Positions 1,410-11,185 of a stretch of 11,185 nt of DNA are shown one piece after another. Within the stretch, counting starts at the first letter, position 1, and every line of letters begins with the position of its first letter. This stretch comes from Acidobacteriota bacterium (GTDB taxonomy: Bacteria; Acidobacteriota; Vicinamibacteria; Vicinamibacterales; CAVVIG01). A program made the translations under genes and the position numbers. The stretch covers positions 24,496 through 35,680 of the forward strand of contig QHWL01000020.1 of assembly GCA_003222555.1 (NCBI GenBank), written 5' to 3'. Under the pieces are notes generated by a model, which was not told where the DNA came from, did no database searches, and saw only the letters and a program-made list of their open reading frames with translations.

Positions 1410-2066
1410 TCACGCCTGCCGTAAACCTGCGATGAGGTAGTCGGCGAATCGGTCGGCGATGTCCTGAGAGGTGGAAGGACCCGCAGGCGCGTACCACCGT
1501 GGAATCCAGTTGACCGCTCCAAGGATGGCGAAGGCGAGCAGCTTTGGGTCGCCCGGCCTGAAGACACCCGCATCCATCCCTTGTTGCAGCACCTGCCGTA
1601 CGGCCCGATCGAACCGGTCGCGCCGCACGATCACCGTTTTCAGGTGAGCGGGAGAGAGCGCCTCGAGGTCGAGAAAGAGGGCGGTGCCGTGTAGCTCGTC
1701 GAGAATCGTGTGCACGAACGAGACGATCAGCCGGCGCAGCTTCTGATCGGCCGTCAGGCCGCTTTGTTCGACCTGGTCGACGAGTTCCATCAGCCGATCG
1801 AGCGAATACTGGTGACAGGCAAAGAGGATGTCCTCTTTGTTCTTGAAGTAATAGTAGAGATTTCCTTTTTTCATGTGCAGCGCGTTGGCGATTTGCTCCA
1901 CTGTCGCGCCGTGATAGCCGAGCCGGCGGAAGGTCCTGGCCGCACTGTGGAGGATGTCGACGCGCGTCGAGGTCCGCAGGTCCGGGTTCGGGACGCGCCG
2001 CGCACGGGGGCGTCGCCGCCGGCCCGCCTGCTGCGGGGCTGGCGGGATTGACTGGCGTGTTCCCAC
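1410..2066 (-). CDS. TetR-family transcriptional regulator, probable repressor of boxCB
   Basis: This is a DNA-binding one-component regulator of about 218 residues. Numbered from GTG 2066, residues 15-24 form a very basic arm (GRRRRPRARR). Residues about 32-80 are a classic TetR helix-turn-helix, with the recognition segment around ATVEQIANALHMKKGNLYYYF. The C-terminal part is a helical ligand and dimer domain that ends with an AILGAVNWIPRWY-type stretch, as in TetR proteins of the KstR2-like, acyl-CoA-sensing type (family resemblance only). The longest frame starts at ATG 2135, but that overlaps boxC by 26 nt and would place the palindromic operator inside the coding sequence. GTG 2066, after a close AGGA, fits better but is not certain because the spacing is only 2 nt. 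The gene is divergent from boxC across a palindrome, which suggests control of boxCB and of itself. A benzoyl-CoA-type ligand is inference. Confidence 0.85.
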   Translation of the reverse strand: MGTRQSIPPAPQQAGRRRRPRARRVPNPDLRTSTRVDILHSAARTFRRLGYHGATVEQIANALHMKKGNLYYYFKNKEDILFACHQYSLDRLMELVDQVEQSGLTADQKLRRLIVSFVHTILDELHGTALFLDLEALSPAHLKTVIVRRDRFDRAVRQVLQQGMDAGVFRPGDPKLLAFAILGAVNWIPRWYAPAGPSTSQDIADRFADYLIAGLRQA

Positions 2067-2077
2067 CGTCCTAAAGT
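2048..2077 (+). promoter_or_regulatory. Candidate sigma-70 promoter for boxC
   Basis: TTGACT (2048-2053, 5 of 6 to the -35 consensus) is followed after 18 bp by TAAAGT (2072-2077, 4 of 6 to the -10 consensus). Transcription would start near 2084, inside the palindromic operator and about 25 nt ahead of the boxC start codon. The -35 region overlaps the start of the divergent regulator gene. This is a prediction by eye. The host's promoter consensus is not known. Confidence 0.35.
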
Positions 2078-2080
2078 AGT

Positions 2081-2096
2081 TTGAACGAGCGTTCAA
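2081..2096. promoter_or_regulatory. Palindromic TetR-type operator TTGAACG-AG-CGTTCAA
   Basis: Two perfect 7-bp arms, TTGAACG and CGTTCAA, flank a 2-bp centre. The site lies between the divergent tetR and boxC starts, just downstream of the predicted -10 box of boxC and 14 nt before the boxC ATG. The size and symmetry fit a TetR dimer site, and GAACGNNCGTTC-like palindromes are common among TetR regulators of acyl-CoA metabolism. Bound regulator would block initiation of boxC and could also block the regulator's own gene. Confidence 0.6.
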
Positions 2097-2109
2097 TTTC
2101 AAGGGGGCT

Positions 2110-3762
2110 ATGGGACACGCCACCACTCTCCCCATCGGCTTCGAAACTCACCCCCATCACTACAAGCACTGGAAGCTCAGTGTCGACGGCCCGATCGCGA
2201 CGCTGTCGATGGACGTGCGCGAAGACGCTGGACTCTCGCCCGACTACCGGTTGAAGCTGAACTCGTACGATCTCGGCGTCGACATCGAGCTGGCCGACGC
2301 GGTTCAGCGCATTCGCTTCGAGCATCCTGCCGTCCGGACCGTCCTGGTCACGAGCCTGAAGGAGCGGATCTTCTGCGCCGGCGCGAACATCATGATGCTG
2401 CGCGAATCGTCGCACGGCTTGAAGGTGAACTTCTGCAAGTTCACCAACGAAACTCGGCTCGCAATCGAAGACGCGAGCCAGAATTCTGGCATCACGTTTC
2501 TGGCGGCGATCAACGGCATCTGCGCCGGCGGCGGATACGAGTTGGCGCTCGCCTGCGACGAGATCATCCTGGTCGACGACGGCAACTCGGCCGTGAGCCT
2601 TCCGGAAGTGCCCCTGCTCGGGGTCCTTCCCGGCACCGGCGGGCTGACGCGCGTCGTCGACAAACGAAGAGTCCGCCGCGATCTGGCCGACTGTTTCTCC
2701 ACGCTCGCCGAAGGCGTCAAAGGCAAGCGCGCGGTCGAGTGGCGGTTGGTCGACGCGGTCCACCCGACCAGTCAGTTCAAAGACGCCGTGCAGAAGCGAG
2801 CGCGCGAGCTGGCGGAGAATTCTGGCCGACAGGCGAGCGGACCGGGCATAACGCTCAACCCGCTCAACCCGACCGTCACCGAATCGGCGATCACCTACTC
2901 GGCCGTGTCGCTGGCGTTCAACCGCGAGAAACGAACCGCCGACCTCACCGTGCACGCTCCGAGTGGCCCGCAGCCGGCGTCGCCGGACGAGATCCTGAGG
3001 GCCGGCGACCAGTTCTGGCCGCTGCGCGCTTTCCGCGAGCTCGACGACGCGCTGCTGCGGTTGCGGCTCAACGAGCCGGAGACCGGGACGATCGTGATTC
3101 GCACCGAAGGCGATCGCGACACGTTGCTCGCGATCGACAGAACGCTCGTGGCGCACGAGACGCACTGGGCCGTGCACGAAATCATCCTGCTGATGAAGCG
3201 CACGTTGAAGCGGCTCGACCTCACAGCGCGCAGTTTCTTCGCGTTGATCGAGCCCGGATCTGCATTCGCGGGATCGCTGTTCGAGCTGGCGCTTGCCGCC
3301 GATCGCTCGTACATGCTCGACGACCCTGCACAGGAGAGCTTCATCGCGCTCTCGCCGATGAACGGCGGGCGGCTGCCGATGAGCAACGGGTTGTCGCGTT
3401 TGCAGGGGCGGTTTCTCGCCGAACCAGAGAAAGCGGCGTCGCTTGTCGCCGGCCAGGGCCGCTTCGATCCCCGGGAAGCCGCCGAAGCGGGGCTCGTGAC
3501 GGTTGCACCCGATGAGATCGACTGGGACGACGAGGTGCGTCTCGCCGTCGAGGCCCGCGCGGCGTTCTCGCCGGACGCCTTGACCGGCCTCGAGGCGAAC
3601 CTACGATTTGCCGGCCCCGAGACGATGGAGACGAAGATCTTCGGACGGCTGACCGCCTGGCAGAACTGGATCTTCCAGCGGCCCAATGCCGTCGGCGAAA
3701 AAGGCGCGCTGAGGGTGTACGGGCAGCAGGGGAGACCGGAGTTCGATTGGAAGCGGACCTGA
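2110..3762 (+). CDS. boxC: BoxC, 2,3-epoxybenzoyl-CoA dihydrolase (benzoyl-CoA-dihydrodiol lyase)
   Basis: BoxC opens the ring in aerobic benzoate degradation. It converts 2,3-epoxybenzoyl-CoA with water to 3,4-dehydroadipyl-CoA semialdehyde and formate, in the cytoplasm. The protein has 550 residues, the usual length, and two crotonase-like halves. In the first half, FCAGANIMML (about 88-97) and NGICAGGGYELALACDE (about 135-151) carry the oxyanion-hole region, followed by SLPEVPLLGVLPGTGGLTR (163-181). The second half (about 310-480) is a diverged crotonase fold with FIALSPMNGGRLPMSNGL. The N-terminus with its histidine-rich PHHYKHW segment is diagnostic for BoxC. ATG 2110 follows AAGGGGG at 2101-2107 and stands just behind the operator. 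boxB follows after 109 nt, so the two are probably co-transcribed. No truncation or frameshift is seen. Confidence 0.95.
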   Translation: MGHATTLPIGFETHPHHYKHWKLSVDGPIATLSMDVREDAGLSPDYRLKLNSYDLGVDIELADAVQRIRFEHPAVRTVLVTSLKERIFCAGANIMMLRESSHGLKVNFCKFTNETRLAIEDASQNSGITFLAAINGICAGGGYELALACDEIILVDDGNSAVSLPEVPLLGVLPGTGGLTRVVDKRRVRRDLADCFSTLAEGVKGKRAVEWRLVDAVHPTSQFKDAVQKRARELAENSGRQASGPGITLNPLNPTVTESAITYSAVSLAFNREKRTADLTVHAPSGPQPASPDEILRAGDQFWPLRAFRELDDALLRLRLNEPETGTIVIRTEGDRDTLLAIDRTLVAHETHWAVHEIILLMKRTLKRLDLTARSFFALIEPGSAFAGSLFELALAADRSYMLDDPAQESFIALSPMNGGRLPMSNGLSRLQGRFLAEPEKAASLVAGQGRFDPREAAEAGLVTVAPDEIDWDDEVRLAVEARAAFSPDALTGLEANLRFAGPETMETKIFGRLTAWQNWIFQRPNAVGEKGALRVYGQQGRPEFDWKRT

Positions 3763-3784
3763 GAATAAGTCGATCGATGAACTA

Positions 3785-3853
3785 CCACAAAGGATACAAA
3801 GGACACAAAGGTCAAGATAGGTTTTTTCTTTGCGTCCTTCGTGTCCTTAGTGG
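3785..3853. repeat. 26-bp imperfect inverted repeat of the ACAAAGGACACAAAGG type
   Basis: The left arm (3785-3810) and right arm (3828-3853) match as inverted copies with 4 mismatches over 26 bp. They are separated by a 17-nt loop that ends in six T. The left arm is itself built of short units close to ACAAAGGA. It lies between boxC and boxB, with its right edge 9 nt from the boxB ribosome site. The RNA would form a long stem before boxB. Comparable ACAAAGG/CCTTTGT sequences occur as dispersed intergenic repeats in several environmental phyla (recollection, not checked). Confidence 0.75.
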
Positions 3854-3871
3854 CTGATCAGCGAGGCAAAG

Positions 3872-5290
3872 ATGATATCCGCCGAGCGAATACCGAACAA
3901 CGTGAACCTGTCGGGCAACAAACGGCTGCTGCGCGCGCTGGAGCACTGGCAGCCGAAGTACATCCAATGGTGGAGAGACATGGGGCCGCAAGGCTTTCAG
4001 GACTACCACCAGGTGTACGTCCGCACGGCGGTGAGCGTGGATCCCGAAGGGTGGGCGCACTTCGAATATGTGAAGCTGCCCGAGTATCGGTGGGGCATCT
4101 TCCTCGCGGATCCGACACCGGATCGGCGGATCGGATTCGGCGATTTTTTCGGCCAGCCGGTGTGGCAGGAAGTGCCCGGGGAGTTCCGGAATCAGCTGCG
4201 GCGTCTGGTCGTGACGCAGGGCGACACCGAGCCCGCCAGCGTCGAGCAGCAACGGTGGCTGGGACAGCGGTGCCCGAGCCTGTACGACCTGCGCAATCTG
4301 TTTCAGGTCAACGTCGAGGAGGGACGCCATCTGTGGGCGATGGTGTACCTGCTGCATTCGTACTTCGGCCGCGATGGGCGCGACGATGCCGAGGAGCTGC
4401 TCGAGCGCCAGAGCGGCAACCGTGACAAGCCACGCATCCTCCAGGCCTTCAACGAGCCGATCGACAACTGGCTCGATTTCTTCATGTTCACGATGTTCAC
4501 CGATCGCGACGGCAAGTCGCAGTTGATGTCGCTGTCGGAGAGCTCCCTCGATCCGCTGTCACGCACGACGAGGTTCATGCTGACCGAGGAGGCGCACCAC
4601 ATGTTTGTCGGCGAGACCGGCGTGGCGCGCATTCTCGAGCGCACCTGCCAGCTGATGAAGGAAGCCGGCTTCTCGGGAGACGTGCGCAAGCTCGGCGGTA
4701 TCGACCTTCCGACGATCCAGAAACATCTCAATCAGTGGTTCAGCCTCAGCGTCGATCTGCACGGCAGCGAGGTCTCGAGCAACGCCGCGTCGTACTTCGC
4801 CAACGGCCTCAAAGGACGCGCGAAGGAGGAGACCTTCGACGATCACCTCGTCACCAGCGCGGTTTACAACATGGAGTTCTTCGAAGAAGGACGCCCGGTG
4901 GGCCGGGAAGTGTCGATGCGCAACGCGATGAATGAAGTGCTGCGCGACTGGTATGTCGGCGACTGCGCGGCGGGCGTCGAGCGATGGAACCGAATCCTCG
5001 AGCAGTACGGCTTCTCCGATCGGCTGCGTCTGCCGGACCGGAAATTCAATCGGGGCATCGGCATGTATGCCGGTCTTCATTTCGAGCCCAACGGCGCTCC
5101 GCTGTCGCGCCAGGAGTGGGAGCGGCGCAAATACGAATGGCTGCCGTCACGGGCCGACAGCGAGTATCTGCTCAGCATCATGGCGCGGCCTGTCTACGAG
5201 CCGGGGAAATTCGCCAACTACATCGCGCCGCCGCGCCGCGGGATCAATCAGCAGCCAATCGACTTCGAGTACGTGCGCACCGAACACTGA
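3872..5290 (+). CDS. boxB: BoxB, benzoyl-CoA 2,3-epoxidase (diiron oxygenase component)
   Basis: BoxB is the oxygenase of the aerobic benzoyl-CoA (box) pathway. It uses O2 and two electrons, normally from the reductase BoxA, to make 2,3-epoxybenzoyl-CoA. The protein has 472 residues, the family's usual length. The N-terminal IPNNVNLSGNKRLLRALEHW stretch is characteristic. A carboxylate-bridged diiron site is visible on a four-helix bundle: E120 in GDTEPAS, E150 and H153 in EEGRHLW, D211 in FTDRDGKSQ, and E240 and H243 in LTEEAHHMF. This pattern fits the ligand set known for BoxB. ATG 3872 follows GAGG (3863-3866) with good spacing. boxC lies upstream across an inverted repeat, and the next gene to the right is convergent, so the transcription unit probably ends here. 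boxA is not in the window, so the electron donor must be encoded elsewhere. Nothing essential appears missing. Confidence 0.96.
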   Translation: MISAERIPNNVNLSGNKRLLRALEHWQPKYIQWWRDMGPQGFQDYHQVYVRTAVSVDPEGWAHFEYVKLPEYRWGIFLADPTPDRRIGFGDFFGQPVWQEVPGEFRNQLRRLVVTQGDTEPASVEQQRWLGQRCPSLYDLRNLFQVNVEEGRHLWAMVYLLHSYFGRDGRDDAEELLERQSGNRDKPRILQAFNEPIDNWLDFFMFTMFTDRDGKSQLMSLSESSLDPLSRTTRFMLTEEAHHMFVGETGVARILERTCQLMKEAGFSGDVRKLGGIDLPTIQKHLNQWFSLSVDLHGSEVSSNAASYFANGLKGRAKEETFDDHLVTSAVYNMEFFEEGRPVGREVSMRNAMNEVLRDWYVGDCAAGVERWNRILEQYGFSDRLRLPDRKFNRGIGMYAGLHFEPNGAPLSRQEWERRKYEWLPSRADSEYLLSIMARPVYEPGKFANYIAPPRRGINQQPIDFEYVRTEH

Positions 5291-5434: not shown

Positions 5435-6691
5435 TTAGCCGAACCGTGTCTGCGTGGCAAACATTCCGAGCGTCAACGCAATCATCACCACGACCGTGGT
5501 CCACGCGACGATGTTGTAGCGCTGCGAGTTGACGTATCGGCCCATCAGTTCGCGATCGTTGATGAGGCGCACCGTGAAAATCAGGACGAATGGCAACATG
5601 ACGCCGTTGACGACCTGCGACAGCACCATGATGTGAGCGAGCGGAAATCGTGGCACGAGCAGCACGCCGGCACCCGTGATGATCAGCAGCGTGTAGAGCC
5701 AGTAGAAAGCCGGCGCTTCATGAAACTTCTTATCCAGCCCCGATTCGAATCCCAGTCCTTCGCATACCGCGTAAGCGGTCGAAATCGGCAAGATCGACGC
5801 CGCAAAGAGCGACGCGTTGAAGAGGCCCGCGGCGAAGAGGAGGTACGCGTACTCGCCAGCCAGCGGCCGAAGCGCTTGCGCGGCGTCGGCCGCGTCGCGG
5901 ATCTCGGTGCGTCCTACCGAGTGCAGCGTGGCCGCACACGCCACGATGATGAACCAGGCCACCACCGCAGCGAATAGACACCCGAGGATGACGTCCCACC
6001 GCAACGCCCGGTACTGCCTCGCCGTCACGCCCTTTTCCACGACCGACGCCTGCAGATAGAACTGCATCCAAGGCGCGATCGTCGTGCCCACGAGCCCGAT
6101 CACCATGTACAGGTAGCCGTAGTTGCGGATCCCCACGCTCTCGGGGCGCGTCACGGTGGCGAAGGCCGCCGCGCGCCAGTCAGGATGCGCGAGCAGACCG
6201 GCGATGATGTAGCACACGTAGAACCCTGAGGCGACGAGGAAGATCTTCTCGACGCTGCTGTACGTGCCCTGGACGACGAGCAGCCATACGATCGCCGCCG
6301 CGGCAGGAACGACGATGTACTTCGAGACGCCGAAGAGCTCGAGGCTACTGGCCACACCGGCGAACTCCGCCATCACGTTCAAGATGTTGGTTATGACGAG
6401 CGCAACCATCAGGAAAAACGTCACGCGCAAGCCGAACTGTTCGCGGATGAGATCGCTCAGCCCTTTGCCGGTGACCGCCCCCATGCGCGACGCCATTTCC
6501 TGAACCACCACGAGCGCCACCGTGATCGGGATCATCGTCCAGAGCAGCGAGTAGCCGAACTGCGCGCCGGCCACAGAGTACGTCCAGATGCCGCCCGCGT
6601 CGTTGTCGACGTTGGCCGTGATGAAGCCCGGTCCGACGACGGCCAGAAAGAGCACCAGGCGGCTGCGCCAGCCTCTGCGAAGGAGCTTCAT
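5435..6691 (-). CDS. NRAMP-superfamily divalent metal transporter, probably of the NRMT (Mg2+) type
   Basis: This is an inner-membrane metal-ion carrier of 418 residues with about eleven hydrophobic segments and the NRAMP fold signatures. In helix 1 the usual metal-binding DPGN is replaced by DAGG (D31-G34, within ANVDNDAGGIWTYS): the aspartate is kept and the asparagine is lost. In helix 6 the usual MPH is replaced by APW (A206-W208, within GTTIAPWMQFYLQ), so the soft methionine ligand is lost. Manganese and iron NRAMPs use that methionine to select transition metals. Its loss is what I recall for the NRAMP-related magnesium transporters, so Mg2+ import is the likeliest job. The start at ATG 6691 lies 9 nt after the stop of an MgtE-like sensor gene on the same strand, so the two should be translated together. 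The alternative is a transporter for Mn2+ or another divalent ion with an atypical site. Confidence 0.88.
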   Translation of the reverse strand: MKLLRRGWRSRLVLFLAVVGPGFITANVDNDAGGIWTYSVAGAQFGYSLLWTMIPITVALVVVQEMASRMGAVTGKGLSDLIREQFGLRVTFFLMVALVITNILNVMAEFAGVASSLELFGVSKYIVVPAAAAIVWLLVVQGTYSSVEKIFLVASGFYVCYIIAGLLAHPDWRAAAFATVTRPESVGIRNYGYLYMVIGLVGTTIAPWMQFYLQASVVEKGVTARQYRALRWDVILGCLFAAVVAWFIIVACAATLHSVGRTEIRDAADAAQALRPLAGEYAYLLFAAGLFNASLFAASILPISTAYAVCEGLGFESGLDKKFHEAPAFYWLYTLLIITGAGVLLVPRFPLAHIMVLSQVVNGVMLPFVLIFTVRLINDRELMGRYVNSQRYNIVAWTTVVVMIALTLGMFATQTRFG

Positions 6692-6700
6692 GCCGCGCCG

Positions 6701-7939
6701 CTAGTCCCTGTGGCGCAGCATCGTGATCACGTCGTCGGCCGTGATGATGCCGGCCAGCCGCCCGTGCTCGTCGACGACGGGAAGGGTGAGCAGGTTGTAC
6801 TTGTCGAAGAGTGCGGCCACGTCGTTTTGCGGCGTGTCGGGCATGCACGACACCATCGTCTCGCTCAGCTGAGAGAGCTGGATGGCGGGCGAGGAGGTCG
6901 CAATCCTGACGAGCGGGACGGCGCCGACCAGCTTCTGCCCGGGACCCGTGAGGAAGATGGTCGCCAGCGCTTCGTAGCCGCCTTCGAAGCGTTTGAGCGC
7001 TTCGATCGCGTCGTCCACGACGGCCTCGGCCGGCACAGCCAGGAATTCGGTCGTCATGCGGCCGGCTGCGGTGTGCTCGTGGAACTCGAGAAGCTGCGTG
7101 ACTTCCTGCCGCTCCTCGGGTTCCATTTGCTGAAGAATCTCGCCCGACCGGTCTTCGGGAAGATCGCCCAGAAGGTCGGCCGCCGCGTCGGGGTCCATCT
7201 CTTCGACGATGTCGGCGGCCCGGTTGTTGTCGAGCGACTCGACAATCGACACCTGGATGTCCGGATCGATTTCCTCGAGCGCCTCGGCGGCCACTTCTTC
7301 GTCGATCGTTTCGAACACCGCTTCGCGCTCGGCGGGCGGCAGATCCTCGACGATGTCGGCGATGTCGGCCGGGTGGAGCTTAGAGAGGCCTTCGTAGGCG
7401 ATCTTGAGCTTGACGCGCCTGGCCGGGTCGGTCTCGAGGAGATCGATGTACTGCCACGGGATGACGCGGGGCGGAATCCTCTCGAGCAGCGCGCGCAGCG
7501 TAAAGGCCGGCACCATGCCCTTCACGAGACGCCGGATGGCGCCGCGCGCCCCGACGTCGACCGCGACGACGGTGAGGAAGAGATGGCTGTTGACGGGCGT
7601 CGAGTCGAGCTCGACGTCGTTGACGCGGACGACCTTGCGGCCGTGCACGTCGATGATTTGCTGGTCGAGGAGGTCGCGCTTCAGCAGCAGAACGCCGTCG
7701 GAGGGCGAGAACCGTTCCCACCCGGCGCCATCGTCGACGGCGCGCACCGTGACGCCGGCGGATCTCAACGCCTCGGGGGGCAGCATCCGCTCGCCGTCGG
7801 CGGTCGTGACGATCAGGTACGCGATGCGGGTGGGATGGTCCTGAGGCGCAACGGCGATTTCGCGCACCCGTCCGCGCACGGTGCCGGAGGCATCGCGCAC
7901 CGTAGCGCCGAGCAATTCGGACAAGGCCACGAGGGACAT
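6701..7939 (-). CDS. Soluble Mg2+-sensor-like protein: PRC-barrel-like, MgtE N-domain, two CBS domains, no channel
   Basis: This 412-residue protein has no membrane segments. Residues about 1-70 and 85-170 look like PRC-barrel-type beta modules (for example LLDQQIIDVHGRKVVRVNDV near 91-110). Residues about 184-290 are an MgtE intracellular N domain: helical, with repeated acidic turns such as LHPADIADIVEDLPP and EEMDPDAAADLLGDLPED. Residues about 297-350 and 357-410 are a CBS pair, ending TLPVVDEHGRLAGIITADDV. In the MgtE magnesium channel, the N domain and CBS pair bind Mg2+ and close a C-terminal transmembrane pore. Here the chain ends right after the second CBS domain and the pore is absent. 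The NRAMP-like gene starts 9 nt downstream, so this is probably its regulatory partner. ATG 7939 has a weak AGG close by. It is the first gene of the operon. Direct gating versus another sensing role is inference. Confidence 0.85.
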   Translation of the reverse strand: MSLVALSELLGATVRDASGTVRGRVREIAVAPQDHPTRIAYLIVTTADGERMLPPEALRSAGVTVRAVDDGAGWERFSPSDGVLLLKRDLLDQQIIDVHGRKVVRVNDVELDSTPVNSHLFLTVVAVDVGARGAIRRLVKGMVPAFTLRALLERIPPRVIPWQYIDLLETDPARRVKLKIAYEGLSKLHPADIADIVEDLPPAEREAVFETIDEEVAAEALEEIDPDIQVSIVESLDNNRAADIVEEMDPDAAADLLGDLPEDRSGEILQQMEPEERQEVTQLLEFHEHTAAGRMTTEFLAVPAEAVVDDAIEALKRFEGGYEALATIFLTGPGQKLVGAVPLVRIATSSPAIQLSQLSETMVSCMPDTPQNDVAALFDKYNLLTLPVVDEHGRLAGIITADDVITMLRHRD

Positions 7940-7948
7940 GAGCCTGGG

Positions 7949-7959
7949 TCAATCATTGA
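7949..7959. promoter_or_regulatory. Small palindrome TCAATCATTGA ahead of the sensor gene
   Basis: This is an 11-bp palindrome with arms TCAAT and ATTGA, 9 nt upstream of the sensor gene's start codon on the minus strand, overlapped by TGATCA (7957-7962). It could be an operator for the sensor/transporter operon. At this length chance is a fair explanation. Confidence 0.2.
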
Positions 7960-8002
7960 TCACTGCTCGCGGGGCCCCACCCCCGCTCGCTCTCGCTCGG
8001 CG

Positions 8003-8019
8003 GCCCGGCTTCGCCGGGC
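8003..8019. repeat. Hairpin GCCCGGC-TTC-GCCGGGC
   Basis: Perfect 7-bp GC-only stem with a TTC loop, part of the palindrome cluster. No T-tract follows on either strand. Confidence 0.8.
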
Positions 8020-8036
8020 TACCTTCCCGCGGGCCA

Positions 8037-8061
8037 CCCCAACGCGGCTGCCGCGTTGGGG
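8037..8061. repeat. 12-bp perfect inverted repeat with 1-nt centre
   Basis: CCCCAACGCGGC (8037-8048) and GCCGCGTTGGGG (8050-8061) are exact inverted copies around a single T. It would form a very stable cruciform or RNA stem and is the strongest palindrome in the window. Confidence 0.9.
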
Positions 8062-8108
8062 ACCCCGGCACCTCGCTCGGACCGCAGGCGCTATCACTGC
8101 TCACGGGG

Positions 8109-8444
8109 TCGCGGTCACAGGTGCTCACCGATCCGTACAAGGATAGCAGCATTTTCAGGTGCACGCGACGCATCGATGTGGCGGTCGAGGGACGCCGGCG
8201 CAGGAACACATGAAACGAATGAGGCGCGCCGTAAAACTCGAGCATGTTTTCCGGCGCTCAGCGAGACGTGACGGTAAAGGCAACGGCCGCGCTTCGACGT
8301 CCCTGGTCTCGACCGTTCGGCGTGTCGGGGCGCGAAGGGTCCCGAGAGCACGGGACGCAAAAGGGGTCGCGCCTCTTGCGAGCTCCCGACGGCCCCAGGG
8401 CGCCGGAACGCAGAAAGTGCAAAAGATTCCCGACCCCAGTATCA
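8109..8444. other. Non-coding stretch upstream of the ferredoxin operon
   Basis: I see no convincing gene here. The short frames on both strands are rich in arginine, alanine and proline and give no recognisable domain. The only structure noticed is a 7-bp inverted pair, GGGGTCG at 8363-8369 and CGACCCC at 8431-8437, 61 nt apart. The second lies in a phrase near GTGCAAAAGATTCCCGACCCC and the first in GCAAAAGGGGTC. They may be ends of a small dispersed repeat. The promoter of the ferredoxin-nuoB-nuoI operon should lie here, but no good -35/-10 pair stands out. Confidence 0.4.
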
Positions 8445-8459
8445 TTAAGTGTTTCTTAA
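8445..8459. promoter_or_regulatory. Palindrome TTAAG-N5-CTTAA overlapping the ferredoxin ribosome site
   Basis: Perfect 5-bp arms (8445-8449 and 8455-8459) surround TGTTT. The right arm runs into AAGGG (8458-8462), the likely Shine-Dalgarno sequence of the ferredoxin gene. It could be a dimeric regulator's operator, or an RNA hairpin that hides the ribosome site. Chance is possible. Confidence 0.3.
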
Positions 8460-8466
8460 GGGTCTC

Positions 8467-8730
8467 GTGGCCTATATCATTTGTGAACCGTGCGTTGGGA
8501 CCAAGGATACGGCTTGTGTCGATGTCTGTCCGGTCGATTGCATCCACCCGCGCAAGGACGAAGCCGGGTTTACGGCGGCCGAGATGCTCTACATTCACCC
8601 CGATGAGTGCATCGATTGCGGAGCCTGTGTGCCGGCCTGCCCTGTGGAGGCGATTTTCGCGCTCGACGAAACCCCGCAAAAGTGGGCGGATTTTATCCAG
8701 AAGAACTCGGAATATTATCGGAGCTCTTGA
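8467..8730 (+). CDS. fdxA: 7Fe-type ferredoxin ([3Fe-4S][4Fe-4S])
   Basis: This is a small cytoplasmic electron carrier of 87 residues, GTG start at 8467 read as Met. AAGGG at 8458-8462 precedes it by 4 nt, and the family N-terminus AYIICEPCVGTKD begins here. A start at GTG 8449 would add six unrelated residues. The cysteines are C9, C17, C21 and C25, then C48, C51, C54 and C58 in CIDCGACVPACPV. The first group lacks the second cysteine of a normal CxxCxxC motif, as in the 7Fe ferredoxins of Thermus and Azotobacter, which hold a 3Fe cluster plus a 4Fe cluster. The C-terminal PQKWADFIQKN tail also matches the Thermus type. The stop codon directly abuts the nuoB ATG, so the genes form one operon. 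This ferredoxin is a plausible electron donor or acceptor for the NuoB/NuoI-containing complex (inference). The symbol is by family resemblance. Confidence 0.88.
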   Translation: MAYIICEPCVGTKDTACVDVCPVDCIHPRKDEAGFTAAEMLYIHPDECIDCGACVPACPVEAIFALDETPQKWADFIQKNSEYYRSS

Positions 8731-9258
8731 ATGGGCCTGATCGATCACCGGTTCGAAGACAACTTCATCACGACCAGCATCGACCGCGTGCTCAACTGGG
8801 CGCGCGAGTCGTCGATCTGGCCGATGGGATTCGGCCTCGCGTGCTGCGCGATCGAGATGATGGCTGCCTCGGCGTCGCGCTACGACATCGCGCGCTTTGG
8901 CGCCGAAGTGTTTCGCGCCTCTCCGCGTCAGTCGGATTTGATGATCGTCGCCGGGACGGTCACCAAGAAGATGGCGCCGGTACTGCGCCGGCTCTACGAT
9001 CAGATGCCCGAGCCCAAATGGGTGATCTCGATGGGCAGCTGCTCGAACGCCGGCGGGCCGTTTCCCACTTACAGCGTGCTGCAGGGGGTCGACAAGGTGG
9101 TGCCGGTCGACGTCTACGTGTCGGGCTGTCCGCCGCGACCCGAGGCGCTGCTGTACGGGTTGATGCGGCTGCAGGACAAGATTCGCAAAGAGGGCACGGT
9201 GTTGAGAAAAGAGCGCACGATCATGTCGGGCGACACCGAGCCGACGCTGGTTGGGTGA
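8731..9258 (+). CDS. nuoB: NADH-quinone oxidoreductase subunit B
   Basis: NuoB is the complex I peripheral-arm subunit that carries the terminal cluster N2 and passes electrons to quinone at the membrane interface. The protein has 175 residues. The N2 ligands are visible: the tandem C38-C39 in [11 protein letters not shown]104 in [11 protein letters not shown] and C133 in SGCPPRPEA. The N-terminus and the length are normal for a NuoB with a short tail. The ATG follows the ferredoxin stop with no gap, which implies translational coupling. nuoA and nuoC, its usual neighbours, are absent, and nuoI follows 16 nt later. It may serve the main respiratory complex with the other subunits encoded elsewhere, or a variant complex. 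Confidence 0.95.
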
Positions 9259-9274
9259 GCGAGAGTGTCGGAAA

Positions 9275-9745
9275 ATGCAGACGATCATCAAGTTCCTCAA
9301 GACGGTCTTCCTCGTCGACCTCCTGAAGGGCATGTGGCTGACGCTCAAATACACGCCCCGGCCGGCCTTCACCTTCCAGTATCCGGCCGAACGGCGGCCG
9401 ACCGCGCCGCGCTTCCGCGGCGTCCTGAGGCTGCAGGTCGAGCCCGGAACCGGCGCGCAAACCTGCATCGTCTGCGACCAGTGCGCGAAGGTGTGTCCCG
9501 ACGATCTCATTGCTCTCGGCGGCCATCGCGAGCCGGGCCAGAAGATCAAGATCCTCGATTACTTCGATTTCAACCTGTCGCGCTGCAGTTTCTGCGGATT
9601 GTGCGCCGAAGTGTGCCCGACCAAGCCGATTAAAGCGCTGATCATGAGCGAAGACTACGAGCTTGGCAGCTACAGCCGGGACACGCAGATCCTGCGCGTC
9701 GATCAGATGTACGACGGCGTCGCAATCGAGCAGTACACGCATTGA
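9275..9745 (+). CDS. nuoI: NADH-quinone oxidoreductase subunit I
   Basis: NuoI is the complex I subunit that holds clusters N6a and N6b and relays electrons to NuoB. From ATG 9275 it has 156 residues. Two complete cluster motifs are seen: C64, C67, C70 and C74 in CIVCDQCAKVCP, and C104, C107, C110 and C114 in CSFCGLCAEVCP. The N-terminus FLVDLLKGMWLTLKY is the conserved amphipathic membrane-facing segment. An earlier in-frame TTG at 9251 overlaps nuoB and would add eight residues. ATG 9275 is preferred because of the family N-terminus, though its ribosome site is weak. The pairing of nuoB with nuoI without nuoCDH is unusual. The two encoded proteins are adjacent in the electron path. Confidence 0.94.
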   Translation: MQTIIKFLKTVFLVDLLKGMWLTLKYTPRPAFTFQYPAERRPTAPRFRGVLRLQVEPGTGAQTCIVCDQCAKVCPDDLIALGGHREPGQKIKILDYFDFNLSRCSFCGLCAEVCPTKPIKALIMSEDYELGSYSRDTQILRVDQMYDGVAIEQYTH

Positions 9746-9831
9746 AATCGGTTCTCGTCCGCATCTGCCGAGCGCCCGGCCGGCCCAGGAAGGCGCGCGC
9801 ATCCAAATCGGTGGCTTTTCGGGGAGGGACC

Positions 9832-11185
9832 ATGCAGCGCGGCTTCCAGGTCGTCGCCATCTCAGCCCTTGTCGCGGGGGCGACGCTGGCCATTCGCGCC
9901 GACGTCACCCCGCCGACGCAAGCGGCAGAAATCGAGCTCCAGCTCGGCCATCTGTTCTTCTCGGAAGGGCGGTTCCCCGAATCGCTCGACGCCTACCAGC
10001 ACGCGCTGCGCACGGACGACTCGTCGAGACTGCGCGAAGCCCGCTCGGGCGTCATCCAGTCGGCGCTGCGCCTCGCCGAGTACGACATCGCGCGCGTCCA
10101 CGCCGAGGCGCTGCTCAAGTCGTCTCCGCGCAACGCCGAGGCCGTGTCGCTCTATGGCGACTCACTGTGGGCCTCGGGACTGTTCGAACAAGCTGAAGCG
10201 AAGTACAAGGACGCGCTGTCGATAGTGCCCGAGCTCGCGCGCGGGCGCCACGGCCTCGCGCGGTCGCTCCTGGCACGCAGCCAGGTCGACGCCGCGATGA
10301 ACGAGGCGCAGGCGGCCTTGTTGCTGGCGCCGCGGGACCTCGAGATTCATCATACGGTCGGCGCCATCTACGAGCGCATGCACAAGTATGAAGAAGCGGC
10401 CGGCGCCTACAGCAACTACGTGAACTTGCTGCCAAACAAGGACACCAGCGACAAAGCCATCTGGTCGCGCGCAGAGATTGGATTCCTGCGCTCGTTCGGC
10501 CAGCGGATCCCGTTCGAGATGGATCCCGGCGCCGACACGATGTTGTACACGGTGCCTTTCAAGCTGGTCAACGACAAGATCGTCGTGCGCGCCAAAATCA
10601 ACAACCGGGGAGACCAGGATTTCATCGTCGATACCGGTTCGGAAAGCACGGTCATCACCGACACCACCGCGCAGAGGATCGGCGTGGCGCCGATCACGTA
10701 CACGCTGAGCGCCGGCGTGGGCGAAGTCGGGTTGCGCGGCCTTCAGCTGGCGCGGCTCGAATCGCTCACGATCGGGTCGCTGAAGTTGCGGAACGTGCCG
10801 TGCATCATCAAGAACCCCCCGCTGCGGAACCTTCCCATCAGGGAAAGGGAAAGCCTGTCGCCGCTCGCGCTCGGGTTCTCGATGATGATCGACTACAAGG
10901 CGAAGCTCCTCACCCTCGGCAAGCATTTGCCGCCCGAACCGATGGACGTCGAGCTGCCGCTCACGCTCTATCGACTGGCGACGGTGCGCGGCACCATCGA
11001 CGCGGACCATCAGGTCAACTTCGTCGTCGACACGGGCGGCGAAGTGATTTCGATCAGTCAGGCGACTGCGACCGCACTCCACCGGCCGGCGCAGGAACGG
11101 CGAATCAAGTTGAAGGTGTACGGCACGTCAGGATGGGATCGCGACGCGTTTCTTCTGCTGCCTGGCGTCGATCTGGCCTTCGACG
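9832..11185 (+). CDS. Secreted TPR protein with tandem retropepsin-like aspartic protease domains (3' end outside window)
   Basis: The frame is open for 451 codons from ATG 9832 to the right edge. A strong GGAGG (9823-9827) precedes the start. Residues 1-23 resemble a signal peptide, with a hydrophobic core VVAISALVAGATLA and a possible cut after AIRA, so export is likely. Residues about 33-205 form tetratricopeptide-like helix pairs (for example GLFEQAEAKYKDALSIVP and KYEEAAGAYSNYVNLLP). Two retropepsin-type catalytic motifs follow: DTGS at 267-270 in FIVDTGSESTVIT, and DTGG at 400-403 in FVVDTGGEVISIS. The end of the first lobe has the typical LGFSMMIDY strand. Each lobe gives one aspartate, so the chain could form an intramolecular active site. 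It is probably a periplasmic or surface protease, or a peptide-binding protein. Its substrate is unknown and nothing around it indicates one. The 86-nt gap after nuoI suggests a separate unit. Confidence 0.85.
   Translation, partial: MQRGFQVVAISALVAGATLAIRADVTPPTQAAEIELQLGHLFFSEGRFPESLDAYQHALRTDDSSRLREARSGVIQSALRLAEYDIARVHAEALLKSSPRNAEAVSLYGDSLWASGLFEQAEAKYKDALSIVPELARGRHGLARSLLARSQVDAAMNEAQAALLLAPRDLEIHHTVGAIYERMHKYEEAAGAYSNYVNLLPNKDTSDKAIWSRAEIGFLRSFGQRIPFEMDPGADTMLYTVPFKLVNDKIVVRAKINNRGDQDFIVDTGSESTVITDTTAQRIGVAPITYTLSAGVGEVGLRGLQLARLESLTIGSLKLRNVPCIIKNPPLRNLPIRERESLSPLALGFSMMIDYKAKLLTLGKHLPPEPMDVELPLTLYRLATVRGTIDADHQVNFVVDTGGEVISISQATATALHRPAQERRIKLKVYGTSGWDRDAFLLLPGVDLAFD

Follow-up and report, generated by a model that had tools for sequence, protein, structure and literature searches.

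The window, i.e., the whole stretch of DNA analyzed here (11,185 nucleotides of contig QHWL01000020.1 from an Acidobacteriota bacterium), encodes on its minus strand two proteins of 412 and 418 amino acids, which are found in one frame in the ORF listing and are separated by a 9-nt spacer between the stop codon (TAG) of the first and the start codon (ATG) of the second (6692..6700). The first gene (6701..7939, minus strand) encodes a soluble, pore-less MgtE-like protein, in the following termed the partner, which has been delineated from the ORF, Pfam, PDB sequence matches and a structural model. Along its chain it comprises a PRC-barrel domain 1 (residues 1-80, 7700..7939; Pfam PRC, beta-rich in the model, conservation), a second beta-rich and probably PRC-like domain (residues 86-168, 7436..7684; secondary structure of the model, conservation), an MgtE N domain (residues 188-288, 7076..7378; Pfam, ligand alignment) and a CBS pair that stops short of the plug helix (residues 291-411, 6707..7069; PDB matches, alignment, model), all on the minus strand. 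The second gene (5435..6691, minus strand) encodes an Nramp-fold transporter of the NRMT type. The initial annotation of this DNA, in which a pore-less protein with MgtE N domain and CBS pair precedes an NRAMP-fold transporter by 9 nt, is borne out by the ORFs and Pfam. The surroundings of the pair are of a different nature: boxC and boxB of the benzoyl-CoA epoxide pathway (1410-5290) adjoin a gene for a TetR-like regulator and are convergent with the NRMT pair, and genes for a ferredoxin (FdxA-like, under the NCBIfam cut-offs), NuoB and a NuoI-like protein are grouped at 8449-9745, with no further complex I genes recognized beside them among the nine window ORFs scanned. At 9742-11184, TPR repeats are fused to a retropepsin-like aspartyl protease domain in a frame that runs past the window end.

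Pfam assigns the transporter to Nramp (PF01566, 331.5 bits) and hence to the Nramp/SLC11 family. Its best solved match in the PDB sequence search is EleNRMT (PDB 7qia; 369 bits, E 3e-109), and the best MntH match reaches 107 bits (E 1e-29), so that of the two families the protein stands nearer to NRMT, as represented by EleNRMT, than to the MntH proteins. The alignment shows DAGG at the TM1 site (residues 31-34, 6590..6601, minus strand), where MntH carries DPGN, and TTIAPW at the TM6 site (residues 203-208, 6068..6085, minus strand), with A and W at the M and H places of the usual MPH, so that the initially claimed changes from DPGN to DAGG and from MPH to APW are correct. In the wider context, NDAGG and GTTIAPWM, the site letters of the window transporter and EleNRMT are identical, and DAGG together with TTIA satisfies DxxG-TxxA/T, the motif described for the NRMT metal site (PMC8806188). 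EleNRMT has been characterized as an uncoupled Mg2+ transporter without proton coupling, whose wide site has been explained by Gly replacing Asn in helix 1 and Ala replacing Met in helix 6 (PMC8806188), and its transport of Mg2+ has been found nearly equal to that of Mn2+ (PMC13060092). The expectation that NRAMP proteins devoid of the site methionine include magnesium transporters fits with EleNRMT as the closest solved relative bearing the same letters, and judged by its sequence the window transporter is a member of the magnesium-transporting NRMT group. The helix 1 letters are widely shared, as an alignment of the window protein with the best 80 of 394 relatives from species genomes (81 transporters) reads NDAGG in 57, NDSGG in 12, NDANG in nine and other variants in three.

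Regarding the transported metal, M-box riboswitches (Rfam) have been detected 68-108 nt upstream of the partner start, and thus upstream of the MgtE-like gene, in five of these best 80 of 394 loci (L002:2450-2634, L004:2459-2633, L005:2486-2668, L008:2505-2685 and L071:2483-2665). The transporters of these five are 80-83% identical to that of the window and all read NDAGG; an Alicyclobacillus pair carries an M-box as well, 122 nt upstream. None has been found in the other 75 of the best 80 loci, including the equally close relatives L003 and L006, nor in 99 genomes under stricter filters, by which the control has been detected in two known genomes. Locus L003 is labelled Bifidobacterium breve; its genes group with Acidobacteriota, and the assembly is probably mislabelled. 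In the window, no M-box is present at the gathering score; the riboswitch scan of the intergenic region 5' of the partner gene (7940..8448, minus strand) is M-box-free, and a relaxed threshold has returned for 7900-8460 three matches far under the family cut-offs, none of them an M-box. A tree gives no clear placement of the window among its relatives with and without M-box. The M-boxes of the five close relatives link the operon to Mg2+, and their absence from the window, from those 75 loci and from the 99 genomes speaks against the main reading given below.

The site of the transporter encoded in genome G153, which we take to be probably that of A. capsulatum, reads NDPNG, in contrast to NDAGG in the window and in EleNRMT, and the Mn2+ result published in 2014 for A. 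capsulatum may therefore not apply to members with NDAGG, which we regard as a lead. This difference, together with the M-boxes preceding the operon in five close relatives that all carry NDAGG, weighs against a mainly manganese system, in which the carrier would take up Mn2+ here and the partner would sense Mn2+ or report the Mg2+ status. We consider such a system unlikely, yet a serious contender: the A. capsulatum transporter has rescued a Mn2+ uptake defect fully and a Mg2+ defect weakly, the latter at low millimolar Mg2+ only (Shin et al., 2014; PMC4072509), and the window genome holds a single Nramp (PF01566 search) besides one full MgtE, which could supply Mg2+ and also counts against the main reading given below. 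CorA has not been found in this genome, which is 82% complete, so that another importer of Mn2+ may be missing from the assembly. Most likely, the two genes of this soil-type acidobacterium constitute an operon of the NRMT type, known already, that serves the uptake of divalent metal.

The partner reaches 107 bits for MgtE_N, 50 bits for CBS and 23.9 bits for PRC (PF05239; cut-off 21.2, and 17.5 bits for domain 1 cut out), and its N domain and CBS pair are supported by Pfam, by PDB sequence matches and by a fold search of the model. In the Pfam scan the MgtE pore (PF01769) is absent from the partner; the genome's other MgtE_N protein has it. In Thermus MgtE, Mg2+ is bound by E258 (Mg2), D259 (Mg3), D91 and D247 (Mg4), D226 and D250 (Mg5), D95 (Mg6) and E59 (Mg7; PMC5882242). 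The window partner keeps the places of E59 (E219), D91 (D251), D95 (D255) and D247 (D403) and has lost the Mg5 ligands (D226 to N382, D250 to T406), and asparagine replaces D226 in 97 of the 110 aligned partner rows, which represent 97 distinct sequences. Its last residue lies three past the equivalent of Thermus MgtE residue 253, and tails of 0-13 residues have been observed across the 110 rows; because the protein stops before E258 and D259, the plug helix is absent. The partner is consequently not classed as an MgtE channel, as it has neither the pore nor the helix holding the Mg2 and Mg3 ligands. The ATP-pocket residues of MgtE, Y170, R187, D188 and F227 (PMC5529423), are replaced in the window partner by T, V, R and L, respectively. 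Among the 97 distinct partners the places of E59, D95 and D247 are acidic in 93%, 97% and 88%, and in terms of acid retention D95 ranks second, E59 fourth and D91 11th of 24 acidic N-domain positions, while the D247 place ranks fifth of 27 in the CBS part. As this retention is unexceptional and the Mg5 ligands are lost, ligand conservation has been rejected as proof of Mg2+ sensing; the pattern is compatible with metal sensing by the partner and falls short of showing it.

The front end of the partner had been regarded initially as a further novelty, which does not hold. PRC is matched by 46 of the 54 partners first examined (E 1e-3), lies above the cut-off in all nine further Acidobacteriota partners and exceeds the Pfam cut-off in three plasmid partners from other phyla; to judge from these profile matches, it is a usual part of the MgtE-like partner and nothing special to the window locus. 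The second domain is beta-rich in the model and, excised from the window protein, has no Pfam match; in the partner of L121 the best Pfam PRC stretch falls at residues 114-176. No PRC structure appears for the front end among the fold-search matches listed, in searches that hardly covered this part. Domain 1 is among the least conserved parts of the partner (0.32-0.53 per block of 20 residues), which counts against domain 1 as the contact to the carrier, and residues 81-100 at the start of the second domain form the second-best conserved 20-residue block of the partner set (0.75). This value rivals the 0.62-0.80 per block of the MgtE N domain and, along with the loss of the plug helix, of the ATP-pocket residues and of the Mg5 ligands, would suit a partner that helps the carrier to assemble, acts as its chaperone or buffers metal for it, with the MgtE part as scaffold and no inhibitor, a metal-chaperone role having also been raised by Shin et al. 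(2014; PMC4072509). We judge this unlikely, as the places of E59, D95 and D247 are acidic in the large shares of partners given above and two Clostridium NRMTs have functioned in complementation without partner (PMC4072509).

The association of the two genes has been followed in the neighborhoods of the best 80 of 394 transporter relatives from species genomes. A partner gene lies upstream on the same strand in 68 of these 80 loci (in four of them truncated where the contig stops, in one broken across two reading frames), with gaps, which depend on the gene starts chosen from the alignment, of at most 13 nt in 37 and of 58-1251 nt in 31. Ten of the 12 assemblies without upstream partner carry one elsewhere, two of these as partial matches only, and for the two loci without any partner match (L001 and L033) the contig leaves only 133 and 78 nt of upstream sequence. 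Tandem NRMT genes without adjoining partner gene, two at each locus, have been observed at L051:3530-6109 and L076:3749-6620, in genomes that contain a partner elsewhere (two partial matches for L051). Across 99 Acidobacteriota genomes, i.e., that of the window and others at least 85% complete, co-occurrence is near-obligate under thresholds set after viewing the match lists (partner match starting before residue 100, transporter at least 200 bits): 28 contain both genes, none the partner only, two the transporter only and 69 neither (Fisher p 1.2e-22, for related and thus not independent genomes). The lone transporters (L122 and L123, in genomes G009 and G086) read DDDPSG and SPYLF and therefore belong to another Nramp-related group. 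This second group of Acidobacteriota, with site letters unlike those of MntH and NRMT, also includes L136, L137, L139, L141 and L144, and a further unusual variant, ENDGPS with GATVTPWM, occurs in the Nramp paralogs L138 and L140.

Within the 28 genomes the genes are adjacent with the partner first in 12 and with the transporter first in eight, lie on different contigs in five and are 3.8-199 kb apart on one contig in three. Plasmids carry the pair as well, among the matches listed with the partner first in Alicyclobacillus, Rhodococcus and Mycolicibacterium and with the transporter first in Citrobacter, Serratia and Pseudarthrobacter, thus spanning Bacillota, Actinomycetota and Pseudomonadota (positions from the best 15 of 87 and the best 15 of 381 records). 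That linkage is kept while gene order is reversed argues for a functional tie, and the search for the gene pair across genomes, as proposed at the outset, has found it to recur. Fusions of the two, which had been proposed for the same search, are absent from 72 partner and 84 transporter ORFs, from 56 and 59, and from 23 and 33, in three translated locus sets that share genomes; some open frames of 646-935 amino acids merely overlap the transporter in another reading frame. That the genes are mere neighbours without functional link, as the eight of 28 genomes with the pair on different contigs or at least 3.8 kb apart might suggest, is barely conceivable, since the partner never occurs without transporter in the 99 genomes, eight of them show the reversed order, and genomes with unlinked copies still retain both genes.

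We consider it probable, with moderate confidence, that the locus pairs an NRMT-type carrier with a dedicated soluble partner, which most likely is a cytoplasmic feedback sensor. By analogy to EleNRMT, the carrier would import Mg2+ (and Mn2+) down the gradient and uncoupled from protons, through a site whose Gly and Ala, in place of Asn and Met, most likely let hydrated Mg2+ (and Mn2+) enter. The MgtE N domain and the CBS pair of the partner may read cytoplasmic metal and, once metal is sensed, the partner would damp uptake by the carrier, a sequence of events in which we infer the sensing, the contact and whether uptake is lowered or raised. As the plug helix is missing, the partner has to engage the carrier by a contact unlike that of MgtE, and the candidate for it is the PRC front end, chiefly the conserved stretch with which the second domain begins. 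The pair has been modelled as proposed initially; the fused read-through model (19 rows; pLDDT 60.5, pTM 0.43) is useless for the interface. The initial view of a sensor controlling an unrelated carrier thus gains from the consistent pairing and from the M-boxes of five close relatives and loses its claim to novelty, with the regulation itself remaining inferred. In the sole co-expression test, the MgtE-like gene of A. capsulatum has not improved the rescue (PMC4072509); this result is not decisive, as better growth is not what an inhibitor would be expected to bring about, and the predicted regulation has had no visible effect in the one assay made. More tentatively, and with somewhat less than even confidence, the MgtE gating head may be a transferable, free-standing regulator, which, devoid of plug helix and ATP pocket, would dock via its PRC front end on an unrelated LeuT-fold carrier and shut it at high cytoplasmic Mg2+. 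If so, a single sensor fold would use different contacts to control two transporter folds that are unrelated, and a proven case would show the reuse of a metal sensor across such folds. The co-occurrence, the reversed order, the PRC part and the M-box relatives make the metal and the carrier contact of the partner accessible to testing.

The central idea is already known from Shin et al. (2014; PMC4072509), who have described that most NrmT genes adjoin one whose product resembles the N-terminal cytoplasmic domain of MgtE, have proposed that this product acts in feedback regulation or as a metal chaperone and have noted M-box control of some NrmT operons. Novelty of the gene pairing has therefore been rejected, and the modular swap of regulator and transporter, initially put forward as a new idea, was in print in 2014 as pairing and feedback hypothesis; the function of the partner was left open there, and the present locus is a further example of the published pair. 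Added here are the co-occurrence counts, the group with reversed order, the plasmid pairs, the PRC part as a standing element, the lost MgtE sites and the M-box relatives. The operons of 2014 (A. capsulatum Acp2976/Acp2977 and C. acetobutylicum Ca_c0685) resemble the window in an NRMT gene adjoining an MgtE-N-like gene; the window lacks an M-box, whereas some of theirs are M-box-controlled, and the window partner has a PRC front end, whereas the term "PRC-barrel" is absent from the full text of Shin et al. (PMC4072509). It is likewise absent from the papers on MgtE or NRAMP among the matches listed, a literature outside which most subscription papers fall. EleNRMT and the window transporter are alike in Nramp fold, site motif and site letters; the latter has an adjoining partner, whereas the accessible part of PMC8806188 mentions none, its references to MgtE concerning the channel, and in that of PMC13060092 MgtE comes up solely in connection with an assay and in a reference. 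With MgtE itself (PDB 2zy9 and 2yvx) the partner shares the N domain and the CBS pair, and differs from it in that pore and plug helix are gone, the ATP-pocket residues are replaced and a PRC front end has been gained.
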